From positions 1-24,395 of IMG/VR virus record IMGVR_UViG_3300035698_001124: 24,395 nt of DNA. The stretch is one strand, 5' to 3'. The notes beneath the pieces are model-generated. The model did not search any database, was not told where the DNA came from, and saw nothing but the letters and a program-made list of their open reading frames with translations. Positions within the stretch are counted from its first letter, which is position 1, and each line of letters begins with the position of its first letter. This stretch comes from a virus. Positions 2,473-9,102 of the stretch are shown here, piece by piece. Position numbers and translations under genes: made by a program.

Positions 2473-3051
2473 CTACTTGATTTGTCTCGTTATCAGCGTG
2501 AACCCTGTCACACTGGCCGATCCTGCCTTCATCGTGATCGCCATCGTTGGAGGTGTTCTGTAGTCCCCAGCGTTTTCGACCGCCATCGTTTGATAGGCCG
2601 CAACTACGTTATAGGTATCTGTGTCTTCCGCTGCATAGGAGAACGGATCTTGCGCAATCAATGGCAATGAGAAGAAGCCCTTCGATCCGCCGATGATGCG
2701 CTTCAGATCCGTCTTGCCCTTTAACCTCACGGTGTAGGTGTAGAGTGGTTCCTTAGTGAACACAAGCGCCACGTCTTCAGGATGCCCGTCTTGGTCAAGG
2801 AGTATCTGCGAGAACGTCTTGGTAATGCTCTGCAATGTCTCAGGCGTTGTCGAGTCAATCACTACAAGATCTAGAGTAATCAGCCGTGCATCGAGATCCG
2901 AGGCGAATAGATGCACACCGTTTCTGCCTGGAATCTTTACAGATTGATCACGAGTCTGTGGCAATACCGGCTCTTTGAACTCAGGCATCAGCTCAACGCC
3001 TAACGCAGTATTCGCCGTGCCGCCTAATGTAAATCGCAGAATGTCACTCAC
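2473..3051 (-). CDS. Distal tail protein (Dit / Sipho_tail family), short
   Basis: A 192-aa protein read from GTG 3051, which overlaps the tape measure stop as GTGA and has GAGGGGG 6 nt upstream. The upstream ATG at 3108 would lie wholly inside the tape measure and lacks a ribosome site. The sequence has the N-terminal Dit domain: LPQTRDQSVKIPGRNGVHLF (the 'r.i.ipGrdG' beta hairpin), a strand pair RLITLDLVV, and a helix TLQSITKTFSQILL, then the paired strands YTVRLKG. Dit forms the hexameric hub at the tail tip. The protein ends soon after residue 170 (NAGDYRTPPTM...), where most family members continue into a longer galectin-like domain, so it looks C-terminally short. The next gene starts 14 bp after the stop. 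Confidence 0.8.
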   Translation of the reverse strand: MSDILRFTLGGTANTALGVELMPEFKEPVLPQTRDQSVKIPGRNGVHLFASDLDARLITLDLVVIDSTTPETLQSITKTFSQILLDQDGHPEDVALVFTKEPLYTYTVRLKGKTDLKRIIGGSKGFFSLPLIAQDPFSYAAEDTDTYNVVAAYQTMAVENAGDYRTPPTMAITMKAGSASVTGFTLITRQIK

Positions 3052-6000
3052 TGCGCACCCCCTCAGACCGTAGCCGTGATTGGAATAGGTTGTAGTTCTC
3101 GCGTGCAATTAATTCGGCGTCTTGGTCAGACCTCACGTTAAATACTGCCCCTTCGTTCATTCCGCGCATGTCAATCGTCACATTCCCGGCAGCGGCAAGA
3201 GCTGGTTGCTGTGGTGAAAGCGCGTCAACAATGCCTGCGCCAATCTTCCCGAGTACGTTTCTCGTCAGTGGCAGATATGCCTCTTCCACGCCGCGCTCTG
3301 CTATCATGTGAGGTGGGAGCATCGTCGGTTCAGTGAACACTGCGCCCTCTCCAAAGCCCGCGAAATAAGCACCTGCATCCAAGATAAGGGCTTCACCCGC
3401 CGCAGTGGCCGCAGCAGCACCATGCCCGGCGGCTAGAGGCCCAGCCCATGTGGCATTCAATGGGATCAATGCCGCCGCTCCGTAAGCCAAAGCCTTCGCA
3501 CCCTCTACGGCGGCAAGAATCCATAGCTCCTGAGCGGCTGCTTTTACTGCAAGACTAATCATCTCCCACAAGACTTCGCCAATGGTCTTCTGAGCATCCT
3601 CATACGCCTGAATCTCGTCCGCCTTGGCTTCCTCCACATCATCGCCTAGATCTGTGATAGCTCGCGTATATCCGCTCTCAATGTCCTCTCGCCGCCGCGC
3701 ATGAGTAGTTGCAGCATCTACCAGGCGCTCTTGATACCGCGCTTCGACACGCGCCCGGCCGTCATAATCGTCTGCCTCCAACGCCGCGACATCGCGCCGA
3801 TGATCTGTGTTGATGTCTTCCACTTTACGGTCGTAGGTAAGTTGGGTAGATGCCATGTCGTCTTGATAATCGCCGGAGAGGTCTTGCGATTTCTCTTCAT
3901 AGGTTTCCTGAATGTCAAGCATTGTTTCAGCATGATCTTCGGCGGCCTGTTCCTTATCGCGGTAGTAGTCGAAGACACCTTGGAGCATGGAGCCCAATGT
4001 GTCTCCAACGAGATCGGATAGCGCACTCCAAGTGCTAGAGAGCGAATCAGTAACAACTTCGGCGGCTTCCTTCGCTCGTTTGTTCATGTCATTCAGGGTT
4101 TCAACCGCAGCATCAGCCATTGTTTCTACTGTAGCAACAACCTCTGGAGTTCCGTCCGCAATACCATTGCCGAATCCTTGTGTGAAGTCGTTTCCAAGTC
4201 GATATGCCTTCTTCGATGGAGATTGCGCATCAATGCCAAAGCTCAAGCCGTCAATAGCAGCTTCTCCAAATTCTGAGCCAGCAGTGAATGCACCCTCTTT
4301 CCCGTCATCAACTCCGCTTGAGAATCCTCCAGTGAATGATTCAGCAAGCTCATTTCCGGCAATCTCCATCTCCTCAGCAGTCATCCTCGCGCCTTCTATT
4401 GCCGATTCTCCAAGTTCTTGCCCTGCATTTTGCGCAGTACCCTTTTGGGCGTCTAGCCCGTCAGCGTATGCCTTAGCTGAGTCTTCTCCAATGCCAAGCC
4501 ACGTCTTAAGGAGATCCGGCATCCACGATGTAAGCGAATTGATAAGACCATCCCACGCGCCTTTGAACCAATCTACTACAGTATCCCAAGCAGATGAGAC
4601 TCCATCTCTGATAGCATGAGCCATCCTAACACCGATGTCCCATAACCCAGTAACATCTAAGATGCGCTCGATGCCTTCCCAAATGCCAGCAATGAAGTCC
4701 TTGAAGTCTGTCCATGCCTGGGACCAATCGCCGCGCAGCAATGATGAGAATATGTCAAAGATGTCCGCTATCCCACCAATCGCAGTCGTTACAATGATAA
4801 GCAAGACATCGAAGATGCCTTTTACAACATCGCCAAACGTCACAGCAGACTCTCCGGTCATTCCAAACGCTTCTCGTATTCTAGCAGACGCATCCTGCAT
4901 CGCGGCCCACAGGTCAACTGCCGCCGCCTTCAAGCTATCCCACGCAGCAACAATCCCAGCGCCATGCTCTTCAACAGATGCCTTGATGCCTTCCCATGCT
5001 TCAACAGCTTTGTCCTTGATCCATATAAACGCAGATACGATTTTATCCTTGGTCTCATCTGAAATTGGTAGCGCATTCCATAGAGTGGTCATGGCTTCTG
5101 CTATGAACTTGCCAGCCGCCGCCACAATGCCCTTAATGTTTTCCCATGCCGCCGCCCAGTCTTTCTGGTATACGTTCTTCAGGAAGCTACCAATTCCACT
5201 GAGAATGTCCCATAGGCTTTGGATGGCGCTATTCAACAGCGGGTGCTCGTCTGCCCACTCGCGTATCTTGTCTTTGACGTGTCCTATTACCCCAGTAAGC
5301 CCGCCCATCTCGTCAATCCAGTTAGTGATCCCGTTTACCAATGGGATGACGCGATCTTGCAGGAAGCTCTGAAGTATAGGCATCATATCTGTGCCAATTG
5401 TCACCAAGAGCAATTCGAGCGACCCTTTGAGGATTGTCCACTGGCCCCTCAGAGTGTCTAACATTTCCGCTTGCTGGTCGAACGCCTTCGTTGTTCCTGT
5501 GATTTCCTCTGTATACCTAGCGAGTTCCTCAGATCCAACACCAAGCAAGTTGCTAAACTGTTTGACTGCTCCTGTGCCAAAGATGGTCGCCATTGCATTA
5601 AGCTGTTCTTCCTGTGTCAAACCAGCGAAGGCTACCTCAATCTGTGCCATCGCGCCTTCTAGTCCGACGAAGTTGCCCTCTGTATTGAACATAGAGATGC
5701 CGAGGTTGTCCATCATCTCTGCCGCTTCAGTAGTTGGCCTTGCTAGTCCTTGCAATGATGTCTGTAGCGCTCTCGTCGCAATTCCACCTGTTAGACCAGC
5801 ATCTCCGAGCTTGCCAACCGCTGCGACTGTCTCTTCAACAGACATGCCCATAGCATGAGCAATCGGGGCGAAGAACTTCATGGATTGAGCAAGGCTCTCT
5901 ACGGTTGTATTGGAACTAGACGCGGTGGCTGCCAGCAGATTCACAACCCTGTCTGCATCTGCCGCTTCTAGTCCCATCTGACGAATCGTAGTCGCTGTGA

Positions 6001-6451
6001 TTCTTGCTGCTTCTCCAAGCTCCATCGTCTGCGATTCAGCAAGGGCGACAACACCGCCCATCGCAGATATGATCTCATCTGCCTCGAACCCAGCACGTCC
6101 AAGAGCTTCCATTCCAGCAGCAATGTCTGTCATCGTCTGGGCCGTCTCAAGCCCGAGCCGTTTTGCCTCATCGGTTAGAGCATCAAACTCTTCAGCAGTA
6201 GCCCCGGTGATGGCTTTCACCTTCGCCATAGCAAACTCGAAGTCCGCAGCGGCCTTTATAGACTTGACAAAGATCGCACCTGCGGCAACAGCGATGATGG
6301 CAAAAGCGACTTTGGCAACCCGCCCAATCTTCCTGAACACATTGCCAATCTTGGTCCCAAAGGAAGCACCGGCAGCGTTAACTGCCTTCAGATCAGCGAT
6401 CGCCTTCGCTTTGTTTATCGAGATTGTGCCAAAGAGCCGGAAAATCTCAAT
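3044..6451 (-). CDS. Tail tape measure protein, probable ATT start
   Basis: The frame is open from ATT 6451 and encodes 1135 aa. The first residues after the start, EIFRLFGTISIN, match the classical tape measure opening ('MEIFRLFGTI.I'), and AGGAGG lies exactly 6 nt upstream of the ATT. Starting at the GTG (6340) would discard this conserved N-terminus. Next come a hydrophobic segment (AFAIIAVAAGAIF), the TIGR01760/PhageMin_Tail core (about residues 70-350: VKAITGATAEEFDAL, ALGRAGFEADEI, FGTGAVKQFSNLL), amphipathic helical repeats rich in W, and a long coiled coil around residues 840-960. A second hydrophobic stretch lies near 980-1040. The protein sets tail length and is ejected with the DNA. 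The gene sits after the HNH gene, with a 5-bp overlap. Confidence 0.93.
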   Translation of the reverse strand: MEIFRLFGTISINKAKAIADLKAVNAAGASFGTKIGNVFRKIGRVAKVAFAIIAVAAGAIFVKSIKAAADFEFAMAKVKAITGATAEEFDALTDEAKRLGLETAQTMTDIAAGMEALGRAGFEADEIISAMGGVVALAESQTMELGEAARITATTIRQMGLEAADADRVVNLLAATASSSNTTVESLAQSMKFFAPIAHAMGMSVEETVAAVGKLGDAGLTGGIATRALQTSLQGLARPTTEAAEMMDNLGISMFNTEGNFVGLEGAMAQIEVAFAGLTQEEQLNAMATIFGTGAVKQFSNLLGVGSEELARYTEEITGTTKAFDQQAEMLDTLRGQWTILKGSLELLLVTIGTDMMPILQSFLQDRVIPLVNGITNWIDEMGGLTGVIGHVKDKIREWADEHPLLNSAIQSLWDILSGIGSFLKNVYQKDWAAAWENIKGIVAAAGKFIAEAMTTLWNALPISDETKDKIVSAFIWIKDKAVEAWEGIKASVEEHGAGIVAAWDSLKAAAVDLWAAMQDASARIREAFGMTGESAVTFGDVVKGIFDVLLIIVTTAIGGIADIFDIFSSLLRGDWSQAWTDFKDFIAGIWEGIERILDVTGLWDIGVRMAHAIRDGVSSAWDTVVDWFKGAWDGLINSLTSWMPDLLKTWLGIGEDSAKAYADGLDAQKGTAQNAGQELGESAIEGARMTAEEMEIAGNELAESFTGGFSSGVDDGKEGAFTAGSEFGEAAIDGLSFGIDAQSPSKKAYRLGNDFTQGFGNGIADGTPEVVATVETMADAAVETLNDMNKRAKEAAEVVTDSLSSTWSALSDLVGDTLGSMLQGVFDYYRDKEQAAEDHAETMLDIQETYEEKSQDLSGDYQDDMASTQLTYDRKVEDINTDHRRDVAALEADDYDGRARVEARYQERLVDAATTHARRREDIESGYTRAITDLGDDVEEAKADEIQAYEDAQKTIGEVLWEMISLAVKAAAQELWILAAVEGAKALAYGAAALIPLNATWAGPLAAGHGAAAATAAGEALILDAGAYFAGFGEGAVFTEPTMLPPHMIAERGVEEAYLPLTRNVLGKIGAGIVDALSPQQPALAAAGNVTIDMRGMNEGAVFNVRSDQDAELIARENYNLFQSRLRSEGVRSE

Positions 6452-7109
6452 AATGAACCTCCTTTGTATGACAGATAGCCATAAACTCCTCGACAGTCTT
6501 ATCGTGCTTCTTGCTATTACAACTATGGCATGACAGCGTTATGTTCTCTATGCCGTTTGCGCCGCCGCGAGATAGAGGAATCATGTGATCTTCTGTAGCT
6601 GTTTCTACATCTAGACGGCATCCACAATAGACACATAGCCAACCAGCGTCATCGCACACAGAAAGGAACTCTGCATAAGAGTGACTGCCATCTGCATTGG
6701 CTTTCATAGCCCTGCGCTTGTTCGTGTTCTCTTTCCAGAACGCTCGTATGCGCTCTGGATGTTCTTTCTTCCACCTGTCGTGGTATTCTTTACGCTTCTC
6801 TGGATTGGCATCAAACCATCTCTTGCTGTTCTCAGCGCATCGTTCTTTGTTATTCTCATACCATCGCTTAGTCGCTGCGCTGGCCTTCTCGCGATTGTTC
6901 TCACGCCACCGCTTCCCAGCAGCTAATACAACAGCGCGCGCTTCTGGATTGTTCTTAACCCGATCAGTGGCTCTGTCAATCTGCTCTTGTCTGTATTCTG
7001 GATGGGTATGATAGTAATGTTTACCTCTACACGAGATAGAGCAATAGCGCGCTCTTGCGGTCTTTGCTTCAAACATATCTCCGCAGAACTCACACGCTTC
7101 CGCCACCAT
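6447..7109 (-). CDS. HNH homing-type endonuclease
   Basis: A 220-aa protein. An N-terminal zinc finger uses C6, C9, C23 and C27. A basic helical linker at about residues 65-125 repeats a KRW.ENN.EK unit four times. The C-terminal HNH nuclease (residues 159-202) shows CVYCGC, the catalytic DH pair at 174-175, N188 and the CHSCN zinc knuckle at 194-198, then KKHDKTVEEF. The family makes site-specific double-strand or nicking cuts, and free-standing copies spread by homing. It lies between the chaperone and tape measure genes, where most siphophages have no gene, so I infer a selfish insertion. ATG 7109 has AGGTGA about 5 nt upstream. Its last codons contain the AGGAGG that serves the tape measure. 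Confidence 0.92.
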   Translation of the reverse strand: MVAEACEFCGDMFEAKTARARYCSISCRGKHYYHTHPEYRQEQIDRATDRVKNNPEARAVVLAAGKRWRENNREKASAATKRWYENNKERCAENSKRWFDANPEKRKEYHDRWKKEHPERIRAFWKENTNKRRAMKANADGSHSYAEFLSVCDDAGWLCVYCGCRLDVETATEDHMIPLSRGGANGIENITLSCHSCNSKKHDKTVEEFMAICHTKEVHY

Positions 7110-7118
7110 TTACATCAC

Positions 7119-7532
7119 CTACCCCAGTGGATTGAACTCTTGATTGCCAGCCTTTATGAAGAACTCAAGCTCTTCGTCTGAGATCTCAGGCAGCCCCGGA
7201 TCTTCTCTCTCAACTGGCACACCTGATAGCTGCGCGAACCAGTTGTCAAATGGAATCACTTCCCTCCGTGTCTTGTCCACAACAGTTGGCACATTCGCCC
7301 GATAGCTCCACAATGCCTCACGTCTGAATTCCTCAAGCAGCGCCTCTGATATAATACGCGCTTTCTGCAATAGCTCTGTGTAGCTTAGTCCGTCTCCTCC
7401 GCTTGCGAGGTGTCGTCCGATGACGTACTCGTTGGTCCATCCGTATCGGTGTTGGAGTCGGTCGATTGTTCGCCCCAACGCTCCCGCAGGGTCTGTGCCA
7501 GTGGATGATTCGTCAGCGCCTTGCTCTGGGAG
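7119..7532 (-). CDS. Tail assembly chaperone T extension (read by -1 frameshift)
   Basis: This frame is open from the slippery site at 7532-7538 to the stop at 7119 and adds 137 residues to the first 143 residues of the upstream G protein, giving a GT fusion of about 280 aa. It lies in the -1 frame relative to G and overlaps G from 7385 to 7532 with no stop codon. The only internal start near the overlap is a TTG at 7478 with no ribosome site, so independent translation is unlikely. The C-terminal part (SYTELLQKARIISEALLEEF and later EISDEELEFFIKAG) is helical. By analogy with lambda G/GT, the fusion binds the tape measure during tail assembly. Position immediately before the tape measure (ignoring the HNH insertion) agrees. 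Confidence 0.8.
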   Translation of the reverse strand, partial: LPEQGADESSTGTDPAGALGRTIDRLQHRYGWTNEYVIGRHLASGGDGLSYTELLQKARIISEALLEEFRREALWSYRANVPTVVDKTRREVIPFDNWFAQLSGVPVEREDPGLPEISDEELEFFIKAGNQEFNPLG

Positions 7533-7960
7533 AAAAAATTCCGCACGTCCGGGTGATCTGCCAGCATTTCCAGCAAACGCACCTCAGAGCCAAGCGGGAA
7601 TACAGAAGGATCGCGGATGGTGCCTTCGTTGGGATCTTTCGCACCAGCTTTCGCAAGCTTCTTTTCTGCGTCTTCAAATGGTATCCCCGGCTTCAATCCA
7701 ATGGCACTCGCCATAAAGCGCACAATTTCGTCCATAGCATTCGGCATGAAATCAATTAGAAAGCCCACCAACGCTTGTGGCGTAAGTTGGTTCAACGATG
7801 TCATCCGCAAATTGTCAACAGAGCGTGACACTTTACGCACAATCAATGCCAGCCTTTCGATATCCATCAACCCTAGGCGACGGAGAGGATAATCTTTCCC
7901 CTCCACGCCTGTCAGGATAGGGGGCTCTCCCAAGAGAACCCCGGTTCCTTTATCACTCAT
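7385..7960 (-). CDS. Tail assembly chaperone (gpG-like)
   Basis: A 191-aa soluble protein with a start at ATG 7960, 8 bp after the tail tube stop. The N-terminus (EPPILTGVEGKDYPLRRLGLMDIERLALIV) followed by helical segments ending in a Ser/Thr/Asp-rich tail (from residue 155) is typical of gpG-like chaperones, which hold the tape measure before tube assembly. The assignment rests on position (between tube and tape measure), size and the -1 frameshift arrangement rather than on a conserved catalytic motif. The low-complexity tail (TDSNTDTDGPTSTSSDDTS) falls in the region overlapping the T frame. Normal decoding makes this protein and occasional frameshifting makes GT. Confidence 0.82.
   Translation of the reverse strand: MSDKGTGVLLGEPPILTGVEGKDYPLRRLGLMDIERLALIVRKVSRSVDNLRMTSLNQLTPQALVGFLIDFMPNAMDEIVRFMASAIGLKPGIPFEDAEKKLAKAGAKDPNEGTIRDPSVFPLGSEVRLLEMLADHPDVRNFFSQSKALTNHPLAQTLRERWGEQSTDSNTDTDGPTSTSSDDTSQAEETD
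7532..7538 (-). other. Programmed -1 ribosomal frameshift site T_TTT_TTC
   Basis: On the coding strand the heptamer is TTTTTTC, in G-frame phase as AAT TTT TTC, so it fits X_XXY_YYZ exactly. After a -1 slip, reading continues through CTC CCA GAG and stays open to 7119. No stop intervenes before the point where the T frame is otherwise recognised. Such sites in the G/GT pair are widely conserved in long-tailed phages. I did not identify a firm downstream stimulatory structure. Confidence 0.82.
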
Positions 7961-7968
7961 TGCGCCCC

Positions 7969-9102
7969 CTACTTAATTCCAATCCACGCCTCAACAGGCG
8001 CATAGGCCATCGTCAATCCGTCAGCCGGATCGAACGAGCCTTCAATCAACATAGACAGCACCGTCTCGCCAGGATACTCACCTGGAATCGTTACCGGATC
8101 AGGAGCGGGCAAGCAGTTCTTCACGATGTAGACAATGTATGGATTCGTGTAGCTTTGATTGCTCAACTCGCACACCAGCGCCACGTTATCCCAGTAGTCG
8201 GTTGATTCGATGCACCCTGGCGTAATCACCGTGTACGCATCATCGCTGTCGGTCGAGTCATAGGTGTAGCTCGCCGACACTGTATCAGTGTTCGCAATTG
8301 AGCCAGCAGAAATCTCCAAGACCACTTGGAAGTCAAGCGTAACGGTAGTCTCAGCCTCAGTGATAGTCGTAGGCGTTCCTGCCGTCGCTCGTGTGCAGTA
8401 GATTGTGCCAGCAGAGCTGGACGCATCTACATCAGCCGTTCCATAGGTAGCCGAATCAATACACGCAGCAAGGCTCGTTGCCGTTGCCGTATCCGATCCC
8501 GAACAGTCGTACTGGTTCGTTGATAGGCTTTCAGTTGTGCCTGCTGTGTAAGTTGTGCCGCCGACTACAACCTCATCACCAGTTGTAGAACTTGCCAGCG
8601 CGATTGTATCGACCATCGCATAATCCGTGTCGAGCGTGGCCTTGTCTGGAATAACCCCGCCTCCGGTTGTTGCATACCACACGCTGAGCGTCGATTCATC
8701 AACAGCCCCGCCAACCGTTCCACCACCTAAGCCAACTCCGTCAGTGATCTCTGCGCCTGTGTTAAGCAACTCACCCTGTACACCAGTTGGCGTCTGATCG
8801 TCAGAATCGCCGCCAGGTACAGACCATAGCATGTGATTCGGCGTGTGCTCGAACAGATTGATCTTCATCGTCGGTTTGCACGAATTGACCACTCGATGAT
8901 TCTTGATCAACCCGAGAGAACCATCTGGCTGAATGTCAAACGCTTCCATTCCCCAGCTAAATTCCGTCCCACCCTTTGTCGCTCCTAGCAATGTGCCAGG
9001 AGTTGTCAAGTCGGTAAAGTTCCGATACAGCTTCCCCGGTCCTCGCAGATATCTCTGATAGGACGCCGCTGTCAAGCCTGTCTGTAAATTACAACTGGCC
9101 AT
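7969..9102 (-). CDS. Major tail tube protein with an inserted beta-rich domain
   Basis: A 377-aa protein located between the tail terminator and the chaperones, the usual place of the major tail protein. N-terminal residues 1-100 (TSYQ-like start, GTEFSWGMEAFDI, CKPTMKINLFE) and the C-terminal 300-377 (ESTDYWDNVALVCEL, ETVLSMLIEGSFDPADGL) form a two-part tail-tube-like core of beta strands. The segment from about 165 to 260 is a separate Thr/Ala/Ser-rich domain with GTTYTAG and ATSLAACIDSATYG. It resembles a segment of the 265-aa capsid-adjacent protein. Inserted Ig-like or similar domains are known on tail tubes, where they face outward. The ribosome site is GGGGTG, 6 nt from ATG 9102. Tube assignment is by position and strand pattern. 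Confidence 0.78.
   Translation of the reverse strand: MASCNLQTGLTAASYQRYLRGPGKLYRNFTDLTTPGTLLGATKGGTEFSWGMEAFDIQPDGSLGLIKNHRVVNSCKPTMKINLFEHTPNHMLWSVPGGDSDDQTPTGVQGELLNTGAEITDGVGLGGGTVGGAVDESTLSVWYATTGGGVIPDKATLDTDYAMVDTIALASSTTGDEVVVGGTTYTAGTTESLSTNQYDCSGSDTATATSLAACIDSATYGTADVDASSSAGTIYCTRATAGTPTTITEAETTVTLDFQVVLEISAGSIANTDTVSASYTYDSTDSDDAYTVITPGCIESTDYWDNVALVCELSNQSYTNPYIVYIVKNCLPAPDPVTIPGEYPGETVLSMLIEGSFDPADGLTMAYAPVEAWIGIK

Follow-up and report, generated by a model that had tools for sequence, protein, structure and literature searches.

The locus raises a simple question: where does the tape measure protein (TMP) gene of this virus begin, when its reading frame offers no standard start codon at the conserved N-terminus? 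The window, that is, the whole stretch of DNA analysed, is one virus record of 24,395 bases. Its minus strand carries, in order, a major tail protein gene (7969-9102), two overlapping open reading frames (7385-7960 and 7119-7478, together 7119-7960), an HNH endonuclease gene of 220 amino acids (6447-7109), the TMP gene, and a Dit-like Sipho_tail gene (2473-3108). The two overlapping ORFs are placed at the tail assembly chaperone G/T position by location and by homology to the two ORFs that precede the TMP gene in relatives, and the HNH gene is inserted between the last of them and the TMP gene. The TMP gene spans 3044-6451 on the minus strand (1135 codons plus stop, counted from an ATT codon); it has a tape measure domain (Pfam PhageMin_Tail, 9.8e-41; PHROG tape measure families, best 2.2e-86) and lies between the tail chaperones and Dit. 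A search of the window and ten relatives against Rfam found no RNA family.

Our analysis indicates with high confidence, on comparative sequence evidence, that the TMP start is the AUU at 6451 (6449-6451). The TMP frame extends without interruption from 6538 to its stop at 3044 and contains no ATG, GTG, or TTG upstream of this codon. It reads AAAGGAGG TTCATT ATT GAG ATT TTC CGG CTC TTT GGC, and the conserved TMP N-terminus, EIFRLFGTISIN, follows directly after ATT, which the alignment identifies as the homologous first codon. A Shine-Dalgarno (SD) sequence, AGGAGG (6458-6463), precedes it with a 6-nt spacer, TTCATT; its energy of -16.2 kcal/mol is the second strongest among the window genes examined. 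These results confirm the observation, made from the sequence alone, that the gene appears to start at this ATT with AGGAGG at 6 nt, and that the ribosome site is supplied by the HNH gene, since AGGAGG lies within the last HNH codons (K-E-V; 6463-6458). A second in-frame ATT stands in tandem at 6452-6454, 3 nt from the SD; it is not conserved in the relatives L004 or L036 and is an unlikely start. Among the 2320 AUH codons (AUU/AUC/AUA) in all frames of both strands, ATT 6451 is the sole one with an SD of -15 kcal/mol or stronger at 5-9 nt. Such a site is by itself not improbable, as 1.5 per strand are expected under a first-order Markov model of the minus-strand sequence; it is telling because it coincides with the codon that homology makes the first of a conserved N-terminus.

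The first in-frame standard start is GTG 6340 (6338-6340), 111 nt or 37 codons downstream of ATT 6451, and it is the one that gene callers would pick. Translation from this GTG, with the first 37 codons untranslated or a relic, would require the ribosome to use an SD of only -3.5 kcal/mol, so that the earlier description of this codon as the nearest standard start, costing 37 conserved residues and having a poor ribosome site, is borne out. In comparisons with eight relatives, pN/pS was 0.15-0.34 for TMP codons 2-37 and 0.03-0.16 for codons 2-21. This purifying selection indicates that these codons are translated, and therefore that GTG 6340 is not the start. In addition, the next standard start in L005, L009, L036, L037, and L041 falls at +27, +222, or +285 and is not conserved. 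We consider initiation at GTG 6340 very unlikely.

Close relatives from IMG/VR were aligned from TMP codon 1, as the sequence-only reading had suggested for relatives with and without the HNH gene. Codon 1 is GTG in L002, L003, and L008, ATC in L005-L007 and L037/L038, and ATA in L009, which has an in-frame GTG at -9; all of these lack the HNH gene. ATA is also found in the more distant L041/L042, and ATT in the HNH-bearing L004/L010 and L036. The HNH-less lineages of the same supported clade thus comprise three with GTG, two with ATC, and one or two with ATA, each with a suitably spaced SD-like element, and no ATG was found at TMP codon 1 among the close-clade relatives. In L005, L036, L037, and L041, the frame from the preceding stop to codon 1 is free of ATG, GTG, and TTG, and an SD is present; the same holds for L165 (ATA) and L071 (ACG). 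The N-terminus is therefore placed at an AUH codon by homology, with a strong, well-spaced SD and no competing standard start, and across relatives weak starts (AUH or GTG) are kept while the codon itself varies. In L004, an ATG without an SD stands in frame 21 nt upstream of codon 1. A profile search of genome contigs with the TMP alignment found no relatives; searches for close TMP relatives gave only weak matches in named phages (best E 0.03) and none in plasmids.

These relatives also bear on whether the true start is ATG, the T at 6449 having been introduced by faulty sequencing or assembly. The window is a single record, which leaves room for such an error; however, the same ATTGAG occurs at the same place in L004/L010 and L036, and identical AUH starts recur across independent metagenome assemblies (ATT in L004/L010; ATC in L005/L006/L007 and in L037/L038; ATA in L041/L042), which speaks against base errors. 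Moreover, an ATG would cost the HNH frame its stop (TAT GGA), and the whole close clade is without ATG at this codon. An error at 6449 is thus highly improbable.

The HNH gene (Pfam HNH, 2.6e-12; HNH_5, 4e-12) is present before the TMP gene in the window, L004/L010, and L036, and absent from L002, L003, L005, L008, L009, and L037; relatives thus differ in whether they carry it at this conserved site, which conserved genes flank. The HNH proteins of L004/L010 and L036 are homologous to that of the window (59 and 35% identity). By these features, it is a free-standing homing-type gene with putative endonuclease activity; a structure prediction for the HNH protein gave a pLDDT of 40 and was unusable. 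At all three loci, the HNH gene is located precisely where the TMP gene starts, and both the SD and the AUU of the TMP gene lie within the final HNH codons. The stop is the TGA formed by ATTGAG in each, so that in this clade the T of ATT doubles as the first base of the HNH stop. The 5-nt overlap noted from the sequence is that of the HNH and TMP ORFs; the TGA itself (6447-6449) shares a single base with the ATT.

Comparison of an empty with a filled site shows how the insertion is arranged. The empty site of L002 reads AAGGAGAAGTAAGTGGAAGTATTT, and the filled site of L004 reads AAGGAGAAGTAGTGGAAGTC-HNH-ATTGAGGTATTC; set side by side, AAGGAGAAGTAA-GTGGAAGTATTT in L002 corresponds to AAGGAGAAGTA-GTGGAAGTC in L004, followed by the HNH gene and ATTGAGGTATTC. 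The first codon of the HNH gene thus occupies the very position of the earlier TMP start, and the HNH gene has taken over the TMP ribosome site and start. In the window, the ribosome site and ATG of the HNH gene (GGGTAGGTGATGTAA-ATG; 7107-7124) resemble the TMP start region of the HNH-less L009 (GGGTAGGTGAGTGAA-ATA).

The sequence-only reading had considered that HNH insertion changed an ATG to ATT. This does not agree with the HNH-less members of the same clade, whose codon 1 is GTG, ATC, or ATA and never ATG, and because of them we regard the weak start as predating the HNH gene or as having arisen independently of it. An effect of the insertion on the identity of the codon fared better. A different HNH-like gene, which has no Pfam match and is apparently interrupted by a frameshift, precedes an ATT-started TMP gene in L046/L047, and counting unique loci, ATT is found in four of four HNH-preceded TMP loci versus 1 of about 109 without HNH (L280). 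The HNH gene is linked to ATT specifically; the associated p value of 8e-7 is overstated, because HNH presence was scored by a simple motif search and the four loci represent only about two independent events. This link raises the alternative that the end of the HNH cassette (SD plus ATT/TGA) replaced the prior start and created the ATT, without selection for weak initiation. The similar HNH tails of L004 and L036 (GGTGGT..CT.ATTGA) fit that alternative, as does the large terminase subunit gene of L205, which apparently has ATT after an HNH gene where YonF of SPbeta has ATG. Conversely, the HNH-less sisters already have weak starts, and L280 has ATT without HNH. We consider creation of the ATT by the cassette alone less likely than not.

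Several further observations concern HNH genes at these and other loci. The junction of the HNH and SPbeta-type terminase genes in L205 (3050-3090) appears to hold a second HNH-linked AUU start: the terminase ATT lies 9 nt after AAGGAGG, inside the HNH end and exactly at the ATG position of YonF, and the terminase would begin I-PSYKNF, compared with M-TSHKNF in YonF. In L046 (1990-2960), the HNH-like element lies between gpT and TMP and has a possible promoter of its own, a structured leader, and a possible start, ATTACGGAA, with GGAGGTG; an A7 run is followed by a break in its frame, which may reflect slippage, error, or decay, and a hairpin with a T-run (GCATCCTAAAAAGGGTGCTTTTATT) stands ahead of the TMP start. 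In L005 (2970-3003), GGTGGTTCAAA before the ATC resembles the SD region at the window HNH end (GGAGGTTCATT); it is extra relative to L002 and is possibly the scar of a lost HNH gene.

Another route to TMP synthesis would be an HNH-TMP fusion, in which ribosomes shift to the +1 frame at TAT TGA, where HNH ends, as in prfB, with no initiation at all. The TMP frame is +1 relative to HNH, and an SD-like AGGAGG stands shortly upstream of the UGA. Nevertheless, re-pairing of the Tyr tRNA on AUU would involve two mismatches, and on this tRNA pairing the fusion was rejected; the distance from SD to P site is 5 nt, compared with about 3 nt in prfB, and the HNH-less relatives keep the SD and AUH and need no fusion. 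There is scarcely any likelihood of such a fusion.

A predicted RNA hairpin (6424-6499, minus strand; -23.6 kcal/mol, z -2.9) pairs the SD with TMP codons 4-5 and is a possible coupling element. Predicted accessibility of the start region showed no clear difference between AUH and ATG loci, and the hairpin is not general to AUH loci.

The wider TMP family was sampled by scanning twice with DNA patterns from which codon 1 was left out, which gave 98 unique loci, 67 of them with a possible start directly before Glu2. Codon 1 in this blind set is ATG in 34, TTG in 11, ATA in 9, GTG in 5, ACG in 4, ATC in 3, and ATT in 1; AUH or ACG thus accounts for 17 of the 67 directly started TMP genes. L083 was removed from the AUH set, as it has a TTG at -6 with a better SD, and L278 was rejected as a chance match. 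A start caller was run alike on every gene of these loci, requiring an SD of -11 kcal/mol or stronger and no standard alternative: 9 of 40 TMP genes had such non-standard starts, versus 2 of 224 other genes of the same loci. This stricter count was used because a looser count of the control genes (11-17% non-standard starts) was inflated by AUH codons beside ATG. Mapped on a tree built from 101 TMP N-terminal regions, AUH as a character required 16 changes, at least 14 of which are forced by supported branches. AUH at codon 1 also occurs in TMP genes of prophages, with ATA in Sedimentibacter (GTG at -9 absent), Streptococcus bovimastitidis, and Litchfieldia, and ATC in Cytobacillus. ATG is found in several Streptococcus phages and Listeria phage P35, and GTG in Listeria P40 and Streptococcus IPP26.

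Many of these loci contain an in-frame GTG nine bases upstream, within the SD: 13 of the 17 near-cognate loci in the blind set, versus 9 of 50 others (6 of the 34 ATG loci). The start of the wider family might accordingly be this GTG, in which case the recurrent AUH codons would be illusory outside a few loci. Bacillus phage vB_BhaS-171 is annotated in that way: the homologous first codon is ATC (KU160496.1:10910-10921), and the annotated start is the GTG nine bases earlier, inside the SD. However, this GTG lies directly beside the SD or makes it up, and the SD pairing available to the GTG itself amounts to 0.9-5.6 kcal/mol; roughly 80% of control genes reach 7 or more. The same GTG also stands before plain ATG starts (L066, L081, and L111), and an extended SD, GGAGGTG, is a feature of known AUH starts (PMC13009471). 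Furthermore, no such GTG exists in the window, L005, L036, L037, L041, L071, or L165; the firm AUH/ACG cases without it are the window, L005, L036, L037, L041, L165, L175, and probably L071. We favor the interpretation of the -9 GTG as part of an extended SD that aids a weak codon, because this GTG has little SD of its own, and we regard its general use as the start as less likely than not. That AUH starts recur in the TMP family is, in contrast, likely.

Other features were seen around these genes. In L076, L046, L105, L093, and L146, a hairpin with a T-run or a TTTTTATGCCATTGAAAG motif lies about 20-30 nt before the TMP ribosome site; this could be an attenuator, further lowering TMP expression. 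A Dit-like-looking gene in L087 (3028, minus strand; VYEIIYTNADGVQVSFSAR) with the SD AGGAGGTG has a likely ATA start, and another gene in L089 (4073) with the SD GGAGGTG has a likely ACG start. Near-cognate starts may thus extend to other tail genes.

AUH starts are known in a few bacterial genes, e.g., infC (AUU in Escherichia coli and AUA in Staphylococcus aureus) and E. coli pcnB (AUU)(PMC13009471). The TMP gene resembles infC and pcnB in its AUH start and strong SD, which in those genes go with low translation and discrimination by IF3 against the codon (PMC13009471). It differs in that those are single cellular genes, infC being autoregulated, whereas here a phage structural gene overlaps an HNH stop and several near-cognate codons occur within one family. 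The S. aureus genes cvfC1 (AUU) and ccpN (AUA) likewise have conserved non-canonical starts; these genes and S. aureus infC combine an extended SD with a weak start codon, and in reporters the efficiency of cvfC1 and ccpN was below that of AUG (PMC13009471). Each of these genes conserves the same codon, whereas the codon of the TMP family changes repeatedly. In the morphogenesis region of Streptococcus thermophilus phage TP-J34, orf28 has an AUU start that was resequenced to exclude error (PMC3952083); this is a different gene, amplified with terS primers, and the TMP gene of TP-J34 starts with ATG. The free-standing endonuclease genes mobE and segG of T4 also lie between conserved genes and contain expression signals of the downstream gene, which favor retention of the endonuclease (PMC2988022). 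The embedded signals there are promoters, in contrast to the ribosome site and weak start codon here. Text searches of the literature, with partial coverage, turned up no account of tape measure genes that start at AUH; AUH starts themselves are known, and their recurrence in one phage gene family seems to be undescribed.

Taken together, we propose the following explanation, to which as a whole (the AUU start, the HNH takeover, inefficient initiation, and the weak-start family) we assign a probability of roughly 0.7. The TMP would be initiated at AUU 6451 by the AGGAGG in the last HNH codons, a step that is well supported. A homing-type HNH gene would have been inserted at the TMP start and taken the original ribosome site and start for itself, as supported by L002 and L004 and by extension in the window, while its end would give the TMP a new SD and an AUU overlapping the HNH UGA. 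Ribosomes may reach the AUU directly or by termination and reinitiation after HNH, which would open the local hairpin; the TMP start is probably coupled to HNH termination. The initiator tRNA would read AUU as Met, inefficiently and under IF3 discrimination, so that little TMP would be made. A TMP is needed in a few copies per virion, compared with hundreds of major tail subunits, and low output may therefore be tolerated or favored. The same family appears to have been weak-started repeatedly without HNH, with GUG, UUG, AUA, AUC, AUU, and perhaps ACG. The suggestion that inefficient initiation tunes the TMP level fits this comparative pattern of recurrent weak starts, the purpose being our interpretation.

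That AUH starts were selected for dosage has, in our view, somewhat short of an even chance. A broader proposal can be put forward tentatively: TMP genes of the EIF(K/R)LFG family may have undergone recurrent selection for poor starts (AUA, AUC, AUU, ACG, UUG, and GUG) with strong SDs as dosage control of the tail ruler, perhaps sensitive to IF3, and an HNH gene at the start may keep initiation weak through the SD and AUU in its own stop region. From the comparison of these genes, a weak start appears to be a long-standing trait of TMP genes and not damage by a mobile HNH gene.

The finding points to a systematic annotation fault, in which gene callers either choose a GTG that belongs to the SD or lose at least the first 37 residues; misannotation of the vB_BhaS-171 type (GTG inside the SD) is probably widespread. 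The few bacterial genes known to have AUH starts have each been handled as a special case. If our explanation is true, a family with many independent switches to AUH would offer a natural series for testing the purpose of weak starts, and for learning how the quantity of the tail ruler is controlled in phages.
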